Shown: piece after piece, positions 13,088 to 19,160 of the stretch
How the letters are laid out: every line of letters starts with the position of its first letter
How positions within the stretch are numbered: the first letter of the stretch is position 1
DNA from: Dehalococcoidia bacterium
GTDB lineage: Bacteria > Chloroflexota > Dehalococcoidia > Lucifugimonadales > SHYF01
Direction: 5' to 3'
Length of the DNA stretch: 32,066 bases
Assembly (NCBI GenBank): GCA_030651175.1
Contig: JAUSCR010000083.1
Span: forward strand, 1 to 32,066
Translations under genes and position numbers: made by a program
Notes under the pieces: model-generated
Database searches by the model: none
Seen by the model: only the letters and a program-made list of their open reading frames with translations
What the model was told of the DNA's origin: nothing

Positions 13088-13306
13088 ATGCCAGGTGACA
13101 TGATGAACGTAGTCCAGATGTGTGGCGTGTGCAAGACGGAGATTGCAACCATACAGGTGAAGAAAGAGAACATGATGCTTTCCACCAGGGCACAACTCTG
13201 GTGCCCTACCTGCCAGGCCCAGCGGCCAGAGATTCGCGATGCCGCCGGGCGGCTGACCGCCATACAGCAAGAGGTAGAGACCTATCCCAGAATTGACGCC
13301 AGCTAG
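13088..13306 (+). CDS. Small zinc-ribbon protein
   Basis: This 72-residue protein has two CxxC knuckles, MCGVC near residue 12 and WCPTC near residue 39, as in a single zinc ribbon. Its C-terminal part (about 45-65) is predicted helical. The ATG follows AAGGAGGAG at ideal spacing, supporting real translation. It has no secretion signal. A second four-Cys protein follows after an interspersed repeat. No specific function is recognised. Confidence 0.72.
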   Translation: MPGDMMNVVQMCGVCKTEIATIQVKKENMMLSTRAQLWCPTCQAQRPEIRDAAGRLTAIQQEVETYPRIDAS

Positions 13307-13320
13307 AAATTATCTCAAAT

Positions 13321-13404
13321 GTCACCCTGAGCAAAGCGAAGGGTCTGGGGTGGTCGGGAAAACCCCTCCCCAGATTCTTCGTCGCTGCGCTCCTCAGAAT
13401 GACA
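13321..13404. repeat. Interspersed palindromic repeat, 'tcaccctgag...cagaatgac' type
   Basis: It shares gtcaccctgag, gtctgggg, cccagattcttc and cagaatgac, in the same order, with 456-560. The middle differs (gtggtcgggaaaacccctcc). It lies between the two zinc-ribbon genes, and the track ORF at 13293 reads falsely through it. Confidence 0.7.
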
Positions 13405-13412
13405 AAGGCGTA

Positions 13413-13601
13413 ATGGCAACTGAAGAGCAGATTTCCCGAGTCCTCATAAGCCTGGCCGAGATCCAATCCTGCGGCCTGTGCGGCACACGCCTGCGATGGG
13501 GCGACTTCGAATGTCCCCATTGCGGCGCGGACCTCGACGACCAGTTGCGGCTTTGGGCACAAAGGCTGGTGGACGCCGTCAACCGCCCGTCCAACCAATG
13601 A
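13413..13601 (+). CDS. Small zinc-ribbon protein, second
   Basis: A 62-residue protein with the metal-binding pattern CGLCGTRLRWGDFECPHCG, a single zinc ribbon flanked by helices. The track ORF starts at 13293, but its first 40 codons lie in the repeat at 13321-13404; the ATG at 13413 (MATEEQIS) with AAAGG upstream is the likely start. It resembles the preceding gene only in type, not in sequence. The function is unknown. Confidence 0.65.
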   Translation: MATEEQISRVLISLAEIQSCGLCGTRLRWGDFECPHCGADLDDQLRLWAQRLVDAVNRPSNQ

Positions 13602-14696: not shown

Positions 14697-16022
14697 CTAC
14701 CGCAAAGCCCAGTACAGCACCTGCCGTGCCGTTGCATCTGCGGCAGACCAGTTGAGTGTGAAGCCATCGCTGGTGAAGCCCGATAGGGTGGCCTGGGCAT
14801 TCAACGTGGTTGGCCCGGTGGCCATCGTGACTACCGCGTTGGTGGCAGTGTAGCTATTGGTATCCGACGGGTCAACGTTCCTGGCCTGGCTCCAGATGCT
14901 GCCCTGCGCCGCAGAGGATATGCCAGCGCCTACCGACAGTGTGTTGGGCGCTACAATGGTGGTGCCTGCGACCATGTTCCTGCTCAGGAACATGAGGCTC
15001 CGAGGCTGGAAGCCGACGCCAGTTACGGTCTGGCTGCCGGTAGCGGCTGGCTGCGCAAAGTTGCCCACCAGGTGGCTGCCTCCCTTGAGGGCCAGGTAGA
15101 AGATGGGCGTGGAAGCCGCCGGCGCATTGGACTTGTTGACTGTGAAACCATCAACGTCCATGGAGACGAAGGCGGCAATGGCGTCCTGGGCGGGAGGCGC
15201 TGCGTTGGTCAGCAGCAGAATGGAGGCGTTGGTGCGCTGCTGGGACCTCTTGGAAGTGTTGGCAGTATCGGCGTCCCTGGTTGCGACCACCACGGCCCCC
15301 TGGGAGGTGGAGCTCTGGGCAATGCCCAGAGACAATTGAGAGAAGAGCAGTCCGGTATCGTTGGCGCCAGCCGCAGTCCCGCCAAAAAGGAAGAGGACGA
15401 AGTCGGGCTGGAAGCCCAAACCCGTCACCGCCTGGTTGCCGGTGGTAATCGAGAGGTTGAAAGTGCTGGCCACGGCGTTGGTGAGGCCGTCGCCGCCCAG
15501 GGCGATGTAGTGGATGGTATCGGCCCGGGCCTCGTTGGTAGTCCAGTTGATTGTGAAGCCGTCGGCGTCAAAGGAGGTTAGCTCTGCCTTGGCCGCAAGG
15601 GTGGGCGTGCCGTTTGAGAGCATCAAGATCATGTTGGTTGCCGACTTCCAGCTTCCCGCGTTGGAAGTCAAAGCGGCATCGTCCTCGGCGATTGCCACTC
15701 CACGCTCGTTGGCCGCGCCCGTGGCAAAGCCAAAGCCCGTGCTCTGCATGGCGGCGAATCCTGCGGCTGTCTGGCGGGTCCAGAAGAAGATGACTGCCTT
15801 GGGCTGGAAGCCTACGCCTGTGATGGCCTGGCTGGCCGGCGCGCCTGCCGTGACCTTGGTGAAGCTGCCTTTGGCCACCCGCACGAAGGCAGCCGAGGTG
15901 GTGACGGTGTTGCCTGCCACCGGCACGGAGTCGGTGAGCAAGGCCATGGTACGCCCCTGGACGAGGCTGGCCCCAAACAGGGACAGCGCCAGGAGCAGCA
16001 CGGCGCACTGTAGAGCTTTCAT
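14697..16022 (-). CDS. Secreted protein with three internal repeats, probable SipW-type substrate
   Basis: I do not recognise the family. The N-terminus has a hydrophobic stretch (about 5-20) followed by ALLTDSVPVAGNTVTTSAAF, which resembles the start of mature TasA/camelysin proteins cut by SipW-type peptidases (FxDxxxxxGNTFxxG). The rest is three repeats of about 130 residues. Each has GVGFQP-hydrophobic strand (about 68, 200, 334), then DxDGFTxN (about 152, 288, 417) and ends in a strand such as IHYIALGG, IFYLALKGG or VLYWALR. The composition is rich in Ala, Thr, Gly and Ser, as in beta-rich surface proteins. The ATG directly follows the stop of the signal peptidase gene, so the two are co-expressed. 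Confidence 0.7.
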   Translation of the reverse strand: MKALQCAVLLLALSLFGASLVQGRTMALLTDSVPVAGNTVTTSAAFVRVAKGSFTKVTAGAPASQAITGVGFQPKAVIFFWTRQTAAGFAAMQSTGFGFATGAANERGVAIAEDDAALTSNAGSWKSATNMILMLSNGTPTLAAKAELTSFDADGFTINWTTNEARADTIHYIALGGDGLTNAVASTFNLSITTGNQAVTGLGFQPDFVLFLFGGTAAGANDTGLLFSQLSLGIAQSSTSQGAVVVATRDADTANTSKRSQQRTNASILLLTNAAPPAQDAIAAFVSMDVDGFTVNKSNAPAASTPIFYLALKGGSHLVGNFAQPAATGSQTVTGVGFQPRSLMFLSRNMVAGTTIVAPNTLSVGAGISSAAQGSIWSQARNVDPSDTNSYTATNAVVTMATGPTTLNAQATLSGFTSDGFTLNWSAADATARQVLYWALR

Positions 16023-16610
16023 TTACCTGGCCTCTCCATTGGAAGATGGGTCTGGCGATTCCTGCAACCGCGCCCGGGCCTTCTTTCCCTGCCGCTCCCG
16101 GTACCACATCAGGCCCAGGATGACGGCCGGAATGATGACGAAGAGGGTCAGGCCGTTGGTGGAGTGGGCAAAGTTTACCAGGTAGCCCATCTTGGGCACG
16201 TCAAAGATGAACTTGGCCACAACCCGTTCCTCGGCTACCAGCGTACTGTCCGGCGTGGGGTTATTGTCGCCCTTGACCTCAAACTGGCGGCCCTGAGGTG
16301 TATCCACCACTCGGATAATGCGGTGGGTCACGAATATCTTGCCCGAGCGGTATGTCACGACGTCGCCCACCCCAACCGTCGTCGGGTCAACATTCCTTGT
16401 CATGGCGATGTCCCCTACGTGTATGGTTGGCTCCATGCTCCCGGAAAGGACTATCAGGGAGTTGATCCCAAAGAAGCCAGACAGCGTGGTGGCTGCCATC
16501 AGCACGGCTACGAACCCGACCAAGGCGACAGCCAGTCCCATAAGGGCCTGAAGCAGGACCCTCTTGGCCCTTGACGGGGTGCCTTTGACTTTTTCGTTCA
16601 ACTCAACCAT
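16023..16610 (-). CDS. Signal peptidase I, SipW/ER type (S26B)
   Basis: This membrane protease removes signal peptides outside the cytoplasm. It belongs to the Ser-His type: the nucleophile is in VLSGSMEPTIHVGD (S58) and the second catalytic residue in FVTHRIIRV (H96), where ordinary bacterial enzymes have Lys. KGDNNPTPD follows, as expected. There is one membrane helix at about 20-42 and another at about 154-170. The length of 195 residues fits SipW. The zero-base junction with the downstream repeat protein marks that protein as a likely substrate. No strong ribosome site is visible before the ATG at 16610. Confidence 0.9.
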   Translation of the reverse strand: MVELNEKVKGTPSRAKRVLLQALMGLAVALVGFVAVLMAATTLSGFFGINSLIVLSGSMEPTIHVGDIAMTRNVDPTTVGVGDVVTYRSGKIFVTHRIIRVVDTPQGRQFEVKGDNNPTPDSTLVAEERVVAKFIFDVPKMGYLVNFAHSTNGLTLFVIIPAVILGLMWYRERQGKKARARLQESPDPSSNGEAR

Positions 16611-16929: not shown

Positions 16930-17693
16930 TTATCGTCCTTCATTTCGTATTTGCCTTACGCCGGGATCCCCATTTCCCGGATCTGTGCTGCCAGTGGAAG
17001 AGGGGCCTTCCGATGAAGATGGGAGGCCACGTCTCCGGATGGTGCGCCGGAACCCCAGCCACGCCAGCACCAACAAGGGGGCTGCAATGAACAGGACGCG
17101 CCCCGCCGTGGAGTTGACGAAGGAGACAGGAATCCCAGCCGTGGTACGCGGTACACCACCTTCCCCACAATGGCCTGCGCCGGTATCGCCCTGGGGTCCG
17201 CCGTCAGGTTGGCATCACCGCGCATTAGAAAGAAGGGGCCCTGGGGAGTGACGTCCAAACCAACGATGCGGTGGGTGATATTCCCGCCGGCGGTGGAGTA
17301 TGTGACCACGTCCCCTATCTGGAATGCGTATGGGTCTTGCTTCCGGACAACGGCGATGTCCCCTACGTGTATAGTCGGCTCCATGCTGCCGGAGAGTACA
17401 ACCATGGGGTAGAAACCGAAAATCACCGGAAGAAGCGTCATGGCCACCAGCAGGGCCAGGCCGCTCGTCAGGCCAAGAAGCGCCCCAGCCAGGAAGCGCT
17501 GTATTTGCGGGCGAGACGGCATGGCCAGGCCCTTGCGCCGGGGCGTGTCCAAAGGCGCCCCCGCCGGCCCCGGAGCCGCACCAGTCGCCCCACCTACGCC
17601 AGCCTGTGGAGCCTGCCGTTGCTCGCGCTTTCGCTTTCGCTCCTCGTAAGCCTTCCGGCGTGGGGATATCATATGGACAAAGCCTGCCGACAT
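16930..17693 (-). pseudogene. Second SipW-type signal peptidase, frameshifted near its C-terminus
   Basis: The N-terminal 188 residues form a SipW-type peptidase: a charged linker, a membrane helix (about 67-95), VVLSGSMEPTIHVGD (nucleophile S103), NITHRIVGL (H141) and VPRLGFL. The track ORF then continues with a Cys- and Ser-rich tail unlike the family. Moving the frame by one base at about 17127-17129 gives VSFVNSTAGRVLFIAAPL followed by more hydrophobic residues, which matches the second membrane helix of the first peptidase (NFAHSTNGLTLFVIIP) and stops at 16930. A single missing G would explain it. The catalytic residues are intact, so a protein without the C-terminal helix might still act. 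It could be a sequencing error. Confidence 0.8.
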
Positions 17694-17695
17694 TG

Positions 17696-18550
17696 CTATA
17701 TGCCCTGAGCCTGCATCATGAAGTCCACGCTGCAGCTCACTCCCTGGTATTCGTTTCCGGCGTCCTGGGGCACCGATACCAGGATGGCCAAGTTATAACG
17801 CACTCCCGGTTCCAGGACCATGGGCGCCGCCCTGCCATCTATCATGTCCACAAGCTTGCCCTTCGCCACTACCTTGGGGGCTTTGCCAGCCTCAACGGAG
17901 ACAATGGCGGTTCGGAGAGCAGAACACAGCCGGCTATCCTGGCCAGCGGTGACGGTGGGACGGAACTCTGCCAGGATGATGTTCTTGGTGGGGTTCATCA
18001 CCTGGGCCAGGCTCGCCGCTGGGGACCCTGGCACCATGTGCTCCGGGTAGCTAAACTGAGGCTCAGCCTGGGCCGGCTGCGTGGCTGGAGTTGGGCCCTG
18101 GGTTGCCTGCCCCGACGGGCCCGGGACATGAGTCGGCTGCGCCTCCGGTGTAGGAGCGGGGGCAACCGTCATCGGCTTCTCGGAGTACCCCAGGGCTTCC
18201 CTGACCTCGGGCAGTGCCATGGCCCACATCACTGGCTGGACTGTCTCGAGTTGTGCTTTGGTGCTGGGAAGGATGCCGGGTTTCGGGGCCTGGGCCAGGG
18301 TCTCCACCGGGGCCTCCGCCACTACCCTGAACTGAGTCCTGGACACCAGGACCGGCGGGCCGGCGCCGTCCAGAGGCGTGATTACATCGGAGATCCTGGG
18401 GTCGCCCAGGAAGGGAAAGACCGCCACCCACAGAAGAAGCCCAACTATAGCCCCTCCCAGGAACCACCGCTTCCCACCGGCCTTTGCAAGCCAAGGAGAG
18501 ACAGCCCCGAAGGGCTGTCTCTCCTCATGTCCTTGGTGAAGCTCAGCCAA
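17696..18550 (-). CDS. Membrane-anchored protein with TasA/camelysin-like C-terminal end
   Basis: The 284-residue protein has a short cytoplasmic N-terminus, one membrane helix (about 29-48) and a Pro/Ala/Gln/Thr-rich linker (about 127-165). Its C-terminal domain ends NEYQGVSCSVDFMMQAQ, which resembles the last strand of TasA/camelysin proteins. The start is a TTG at 18550 backed by GGAGGAACC. It lies 32 bases after the TasA-like gene and two bases before the second signal peptidase. It could anchor or assemble the TasA-like product; that is inferred. A very stable hairpin covers its first codons. No known family is assigned. Confidence 0.65.
   Translation of the reverse strand: MAELHQGHEERQPFGAVSPWLAKAGGKRWFLGGAIVGLLLWVAVFPFLGDPRISDVITPLDGAGPPVLVSRTQFRVVAEAPVETLAQAPKPGILPSTKAQLETVQPVMWAMALPEVREALGYSEKPMTVAPAPTPEAQPTHVPGPSGQATQGPTPATQPAQAEPQFSYPEHMVPGSPAASLAQVMNPTKNIILAEFRPTVTAGQDSRLCSALRTAIVSVEAGKAPKVVAKGKLVDMIDGRAAPMVLEPGVRYNLAILVSVPQDAGNEYQGVSCSVDFMMQAQGI
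18494..18525 (-). promoter_or_regulatory. UUCG-capped hairpin at the start of the membrane-anchor gene
   Basis: On the minus strand perfect 14-bp arms (aggagagacagccc and complement) are closed by C(UUCG)G, an exceptionally stable RNA loop. It covers codons about 9-19 of the gene starting at 18550. No run of U follows, so it is more likely to be an mRNA stabiliser or translation brake than a terminator. Confidence 0.6.
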
Positions 18551-18582: not shown

Positions 18583-19092
18583 CTAGTTGTTGACCGTCTG
18601 CTCAGCCGCGAAGGTGAGCGTAGCCGTGGTGGTCAGGCCCTGGAAGGTGTTGCCCGTGCCTATCGGCAGCTCTGCCTGGAAGCACAGGACTTCCGTACCA
18701 GTGGTGGCCACCAGGGTGCGGTCGCCGGCTTGGAGTCCCGTAGTCGGGTCACCAATGAGGTTGATCCCTGCCGTGGTCGCCAGGTCGCCGGCAGCGCGCA
18801 CCACCGTGCCGTCGGTCCCGAAAGCGGCATTGGTGCAGGTTGTGACCCCGCTCTTGATTGTGAGGTCTATCTGCGCCGCCAACACGTTCTCAGTGGTGGT
18901 GCTGGTCACCGCATAGCGGAACTGCAGAGACCCAGGGTTGTTTACCGTAATTGGGTTGGTGACCTTGTCCCCAGGCGCCATGTTGCTAAATGTTATCAGG
19001 GCCGTTGTGGGGCTTGTGGTGAGGTCCACCGTGCCCGTTGCGTGCTTTTCCTGACTGCTGCTATCGTAACCTCCCCTAATTTCGGTGCACAT
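18583..19092 (-). CDS. TasA/camelysin-like fibre protein lacking a signal peptide
   Basis: The mature-type domain is clear: ATGTVDLTTSPTTALITFSN, then MAPGDKVTNPITVNNPGSLQ and a C-terminal strand NTFQGLTTTATLTFAAEQT. This is the pattern of TasA and camelysin, extracellular proteins that form biofilm fibres and need SipW for processing. Two cysteines (TTCTN, VLCFQ) could form a disulfide. The usual hydrophobic signal segment is missing in all frames just upstream. The track start at 19131 would translate the conserved upstream element, so the ATG at 19092 (MCTEIRGG) is preferred, without a good ribosome site. The 5' end is probably deleted or damaged. Confidence 0.7.
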   Translation of the reverse strand: MCTEIRGGYDSSSQEKHATGTVDLTTSPTTALITFSNMAPGDKVTNPITVNNPGSLQFRYAVTSTTTENVLAAQIDLTIKSGVTTCTNAAFGTDGTVVRAAGDLATTAGINLIGDPTTGLQAGDRTLVATTGTEVLCFQAELPIGTGNTFQGLTTTATLTFAAEQTVNN

Positions 19093-19103
19093 CCCATATT
19101 CGG

Positions 19104-19160
19104 GTGAGACAAGGGGGATAAACCACGTCATCCTTTGGTATCAGGCCAGCAGGCCAAAAC
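19104..19160 (-). promoter_or_regulatory. Second copy of the conserved SipW/TasA upstream element
   Basis: On the minus strand CCTGATACCAAAGGATGACG then TGGTTTATCCCCCTTGTCTC aligns with the element before the first SipW gene over about 50 bases, sharing the pattern CCAAARGRTGAYGKGGTWWA followed by ATCMCC. A GGAT/ATCC pair replaces the GGTGAT/ATCACC pair. The element partly overlaps the extended TasA-like ORF. Confidence 0.4.

Follow-up and report, generated by a model that had tools for sequence, protein, structure and literature searches.

A three-domain module of phage structural regions in a putative SipW-exported protein of a Dehalococcoidia bacterium

A gene for a predicted secreted protein of 441 aa adjoins a SipW-type signal peptidase gene in the DNA of a Dehalococcoidia bacterium, and raises the question of what an uncatalogued three-repeat protein does at a bacterial export locus. 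The window (the whole stretch of DNA analysed, 32,066 nucleotides) carries this gene on its reverse strand. Judged from sequence and model comparisons, the gene product is probably (at roughly 0.6) a surface or matrix protein that is secreted after processing by SipW and amounts to one complete phage-type three-domain binding module. Its parts are the following.

14697–16022, reverse strand: tri-domain secreted protein of 441 aa (open reading frame list, repeat alignment and AlphaFold model)
15885–16022, reverse strand: N-terminal signal region of SipW type, residues 1–46 (MKALQCAVLLLALSLFGASLVQGRTMALLTDSVPVAGNTVTTSAAF), recognized by resemblance to the signals of a same-order protein (L002) and of an own-genome TasA-like protein (L131)
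15489–15878, reverse strand: repeat domain 1, residues 49–178 (repeat alignment; 68% identity to domain 1 of the pilin-like fusion L128)
15090–15488, reverse strand: repeat domain 2, residues 179–311 (repeat alignment and domain tree)
14700–15089, reverse strand: repeat domain 3, residues 312–441 (repeat alignment and domain tree)

An earlier note on this DNA described three homologous repeats of about 130 residues, each with a GxGFQP strand, a DxDGFTxN turn and a closing YxAL strand, and this description holds. The first motif reads GVGFQP, GLGFQP and GVGFQP at residues 69, 201 and 335 (spacings of 132 and 134), and the closing strand reads YIAL, YLAL and YWAL in repeats 1 to 3. The turn is DADGFTIN, DVDGFTVN and TSDGFTLN, the third repeat deviating at the first D, which is the sole departure from the named motifs. 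Self-alignment, proposed at the time as a check, is significant: the three repeat pairs reach Smith-Waterman scores of 139, 163 and 155, against means of about 35 and maxima of 65–72 in 2000 shuffles. With z values of 16–20 relative to these shuffles, the similarity between the repeats is not due to chance.

The assignment to an unknown family also stands. No relatives above cut-off were found by sequence in Pfam, NCBIfam, PHROG or the PDB. Neither DUF7483 (PF24299) nor the H-type lectin domain (PF09458) matches the protein at its Pfam gathering score, and the camelysin/TasA domain (PF12389, NF046066) is absent from the tri-domain protein itself. A plasmid collection yielded no relatives, literature searches found no prior description of the tri-domain module, an Rfam scan gave no match, and promoter and terminator scans returned results close to chance level. 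The protein is uncatalogued but, contrary to the first impression, not isolated: when viral contigs were scanned with its three repeats, at least 180 relatives were confirmed, which places it in a large tri-domain family. Members of this family are concentrated in phage structural regions, and some are found on pilus proteins or other proteins of the cell surface.

A family profile was iterated on the 80 best loci of these machine-classified viral contigs, one GenBank phage and the window. It delimits 255 domains in 89 ORFs, with three copies in 79 of them, six in one, two in three and a single copy in six. Three copies are likewise found in 32 of the 37 complete ORFs of a second sample, picked by DNA pattern, which overlaps the first in part and is not independent of it. 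The window domains match the profile as three consecutive copies with E-values of 2.5e-39, 3.9e-31 and 2.4e-36, values that are partly circular because the profile was seeded with the window repeats; the phage relatives had already been found in the first scan with those repeats alone. Identity between the window protein and family members is mostly 28–38%. The consensus sequence varies with repeat position, and on the domain tree the position labels require 21 changes. Adding the single-copy group raises this number to 29, where shuffled labels need 73 on average. Given this strong clustering of positions 1, 2 and 3, the triplication is old and has been kept.

In the viral contigs, neighbouring genes match the PHROG families tail fibre, tail protein, portal, head-tail adaptor and collagen-like minor tail (two members matched each, among the matches listed). 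The module exists as a stand-alone phage protein of about 416 aa, and as a single copy at the C-terminus of two tail-type proteins (L048, L069) whose N-terminal parts resemble tail fibres by inspection. Single-copy forms would be expected if three copies must come together; such phage proteins could also be derived losses instead of true trimers. Two further arrangements were seen: a phage ORF with six copies as two groups of three (L070, 7974–11435), and three adjacent phage genes, each with one copy behind a similar N-terminal part of about 145 residues (L085, 7557–9958).

An AlphaFold2 model, another check put forward in the earlier note, predicts a confident and compact beta fold for the whole protein (pLDDT 92, pTM 0.88; input of 56 family members), in which the signal region is the only poorly predicted part. 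Domain 1 alone gives ten strands with a pLDDT of 94.8 and a pTM of 0.87. Of the three-blade or bead-like beta architecture first proposed, the all-beta character is retained but the blades are not, as each repeat is modelled as a whole ten-strand beta domain. A beta-propeller (WD40) reading was rejected, the repeats being ten-strand units of 130 residues, in contrast to four-stranded blades of about 40 residues. WD40-like sequence matches in the PDB are short, about 29 residues in designed WRAP proteins, and disagree with the model.

In a fold search of the PDB with the single domain, the best E-value (8.8e-4, Foldseek probability 0.96, TM-score 0.33 by query) belongs to a Klebsiella phage tail fibre, followed in probability (0.91) by an Acinetobacter tailspike. 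The geometry of these matches is weak, with query-normalised TM-scores of at most 0.35 and rmsd of at least 8.6 Å among the matches listed, and no close solved fold was found for the single domain. The full-length PDB search was set aside, as it is dominated by poor superpositions (rmsd of about 20–35 Å); it returned the APC-beta domain of perforin-like protein 1 at a probability of 0.98 and a query-normalised TM-score of 0.28. Known C-terminal receptor-binding domains of phage tail fibres and tailspikes are homotrimers with one copy per chain. The two matched here (Klebsiella phage Kp9 gp42, 7xy1; Acinetobacter phage Fri1 gp49, 6c72) are also all-beta and tail-type, with TM-scores of about 0.3, but differ from the window protein in having one copy per chain instead of three in one chain, and share no sequence match with it.

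Two catalogued families come close enough to be weighed. In a viral model library, the top structural match of the whole protein is annotated as DUF7483, a phage domain of unknown function, and the DUF7483 profile finds 2 of the 56 family members at E ≤ 0.05 (best 3.6e-4). Identity with this family was rejected, since its model spans 330 positions and matches none of 40 phage records with the tri-module, a weak test in that the controls were silent too. The second is the H-type lectin, whose GFxP ... GFTL ... YLA pattern and trimeric assembly we take to resemble the module. PF09458 matches one of the 56 family members at E = 0.015, below cut-off; with ten strands per domain and no support from the fold search, where H-type lectins are absent among the matches listed for the single domain, it is kept as an analogy only.

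The N-terminal region points to export along the SipW route. Among 98 related genomes searched, the same-order protein L002 matches the tri-domain protein at residues 4–46 only, with 53% identity; its N-terminus is MMLRYAILLVALTLLGASFIQGRTFALYTDAPSVGGNAFTT and its body is unrelated. The own-genome TasA-like protein L131 has the N-terminus ...VVATLALFTNTASVAANTFSTDTVDIST. The segment TMALLTDSVPVAGNTVTT of the tri-domain protein aligns with the signals of both, and the motif ALxTdxxxVxxNtxxT is common to all three proteins, in agreement with the early remark that the start resembles a SipW cleavage region. TIGR04088, the model for the SipW-cognate signal, does not report the tri-domain gene at E ≤ 1 and picks L131 at 17.8 bits, below its cut-off of 19. 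Because this model is silent on the tri-domain gene, the SipW assignment is drawn from the signal motif pattern and the gene order. The same-order protein (L002 / L005, 4993–6012 on the reverse strand, 339 aa) combines the same SipW-type signal with a different body, which suggests an exchange of cargo behind one SipW-type signal. A further same-order match (L003) lies inside an interrupted frame.

The adjoining peptidase gene is indeed of SipW/ER type and without gap: TIGR02228 scores it above cut-off, and the ATG that starts the tri-domain gene comes immediately after its TAA. This gene and its neighbours on the same strand are the following.

16023–16610, reverse strand: SipW/archaeal-type signal peptidase I (SGSMEPTIHVGD ... 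THRI; TIGR02228 105.6 bits, cut-off 51.85)
16956–17693, reverse strand: second SipW-type signal peptidase (TIGR02228 77.4 bits; 43% identity to the first)
17696–18550, reverse strand: membrane-anchored protein whose C-terminal end (GNEYQGVSCSVDFMMQAQ) resembles TasA/camelysin, by inspection only
18583–19131, reverse strand: camelysin/TasA-like protein (PF12389 3.5e-08, above cut-off)

The first peptidase also matches SigPepSipWBacil at 1.2e-31, yet below the cut-off of that model, and the product of 17696–18550 has no hit in the Pfam or NCBIfam libraries. SipW-type peptidases, TasA/camelysin-like genes and the signal motif are shared with the SipW-TasA (camelysin) loci of Bacillus biofilm fibres. 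The window differs from these in its two peptidase genes and in a cargo with an unrelated tri-domain body, and no TasA hit at equivalog level was found at its locus.

In cellular genomes the module is rare. Across 257 billion bases from bacteria and archaea, the DNA pattern for TGVGFQPK is matched exactly at 18 loci, close to an estimated chance expectation, and a full tri-module is present at five of these loci, with one more cut by a contig end. The viral collection holds 49 matches, with the module confirmed at 48 of them. Cellular copies often sit on surface proteins. In L129 the module forms the N-terminus of a PilY1 protein behind a row of prepilin genes, the PilY1 beta-propeller domain PF05567 being detected at 2.7e-28; L124 has the same layout (the PF05567 scan covers L129). 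In L128 and L121 the carriers are pilin-like proteins encoded within type IV pilus clusters; PilX_N has no Pfam match in either, and they are placed by their prepilin gene cluster and by a hydrophobic segment near the N-terminus. Other copies lie on a protein of 3935 aa (L127), at the edge of a contig after a long repeat-like stretch (L125) and in prophage-like regions (L123, L126, L130). In L122 (8022–12317) the tri-module is the N-terminus of a 1431-aa multihaem cytochrome protein with Cytochrome_C7, MtrC/MtrF-like and GSu_C4xC__C2xCH domains.

A tree of 75 modules, built by a quick method and containing long branches, unites the window copy with L128 and L121 in one clade (SH-aLRT 100). These pilin-like fusions are the closest relatives of the window protein (60% identity to L128), and the window copy appears to share a recent ancestor with the copies that pilin-like proteins carry in another phylum. 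The cellular copies need at least four changes on well-supported branches, which means that the module has crossed between phages and cells on more than one occasion; it appears to have been passed among phages and bacteria several times.

Taken at its best reading, the module is a horizontally mobile, pseudo-trimeric, lectin- or adhesin-like surface binder of phage-fibre type, and probably an interchangeable one. A binding role is suggested by the carriers and by the position of the module on them. Phage fibres are recognition devices. The PilY1 N-terminal domain has been modelled as the ultimate pilus tip (PMC13190605), and glycan binding is known for a ConA-like lectin module that is grafted onto a minor pilin (PMC9934059). 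In these modular pilins and PilY1 proteins (Streptococcus sanguinis PilC lectin module, PMC9934059; PilY1 N-terminal variants, PMC13190605) an exchangeable domain sits on a pilus protein, as the module does in L121, L124, L128 and L129. Unlike them, the window protein lacks any pilin or PilY1 portion, and its link is to SipW.

The observed basis for a mechanism comprises the beta repeats, the three-copy rule, the phage tail location, the copies at appendage ends and the SipW/TasA locus. The three domains would pack as a single-chain pseudo-trimer, taking the place of the three separate chains at the tip of a phage fibre. In the window organism, the module would be exported by Sec, its signal region cut by SipW, and the product released or displayed in or on a TasA-like matrix, where it may act as an adhesin by binding a surface ligand, most likely a glycan (polysaccharide being the first guess). 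A wider claim is advanced more tentatively, at somewhat less than even odds: that an uncatalogued single-chain pseudo-trimer replacing the three-chain fibre tip has been exchanged whole, as a shared currency for recognising surfaces, among phage tails, type IV pilus tips, multihaem cytochromes and SipW/TasA matrix systems.

The module could instead be structural and bind no ligand, closing off a fibre as a rigid pseudo-trimeric cap or plug and, at the window locus, serving as a TasA-like matrix subunit. The extreme constancy of three copies (79/89 and 32/37), the compact and confident model, the TasA-like neighbours and the stand-alone phage protein of about 416 aa are all compatible with such a cap. 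It is nevertheless unlikely, as the large divergence between copies (mostly 28–38% to the window) and the fusion to numerous dissimilar carriers, the outermost end of PilY1 among them, suit binding better, and a soluble protein secreted on its own has no need of a cap.

The window copy might also be a decaying phage relic or a transferred fragment with no present role. The module is rare, occurring in 2 of 393 genomes of the class, including the window's own, and in 1 of 400 of the phylum sample, again the window's own. The 18583–19131 protein has no recognisable signal peptide and, in the second SipW-type gene, the C-terminus is shifted, so the locus may be partly decayed. The former shares 84% DNA identity over 199 bases with its own-genome paralogue in L131 (1243–1746), which has a signal and stops early in its C-terminal half. 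In the latter, the C-terminal membrane segment SFVNSTAGRVLFIAAPLLVLAWLGFRR is readable in the neighbouring frame, a shift due to mutation or assembly error. A relic is still rather improbable: the tri-domain ORF is open for 441 codons with all domain signatures kept, its SipW-type signal fits and is directly coupled to an intact-looking SipW-type gene, and no phage gene was found among the searched neighbours. Contamination of the bin was rejected; a neighbouring aminotransferase is 70–71% identical in same-order genomes, so the contig fits its lineage. Least probable is a surface decoy, a cell-released phage-type tip domain masking the receptor of phages that bear it, for although the module is common in phages and scattered in cells of several lineages, and the window version is secreted with no obvious anchor, the nearest relatives are fused to pilin-like proteins, which speaks for adhesion, and no phage of the window host is known.

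If the module is a surface binder, its absence by sequence, at cut-off, from Pfam, NCBIfam, PHROGs and the PDB matters, since a domain abundant in environmental phages and missing from the family catalogues leaves a class of probable recognition proteins unannotated. That it occurs at outer pilus ends, in a cytochrome protein and as cargo of SipW suggests a single pool of modules from which both bacterial adhesins and the attachment parts of phages are drawn. Small, stand-alone and apparently soluble once cut, the window protein is a good choice for structural and glycan-array work.

On the forward strand of the window, a short ORF at 13293–13601 has a zinc-ribbon-like end (CGLCGTRLRWGDFECPHCGADL). 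Its start overlaps a CACCCTGAGCAAAGCGAAGGGTCTG-type sequence that resembles an interspersed repeat and is present in a single copy in the window.
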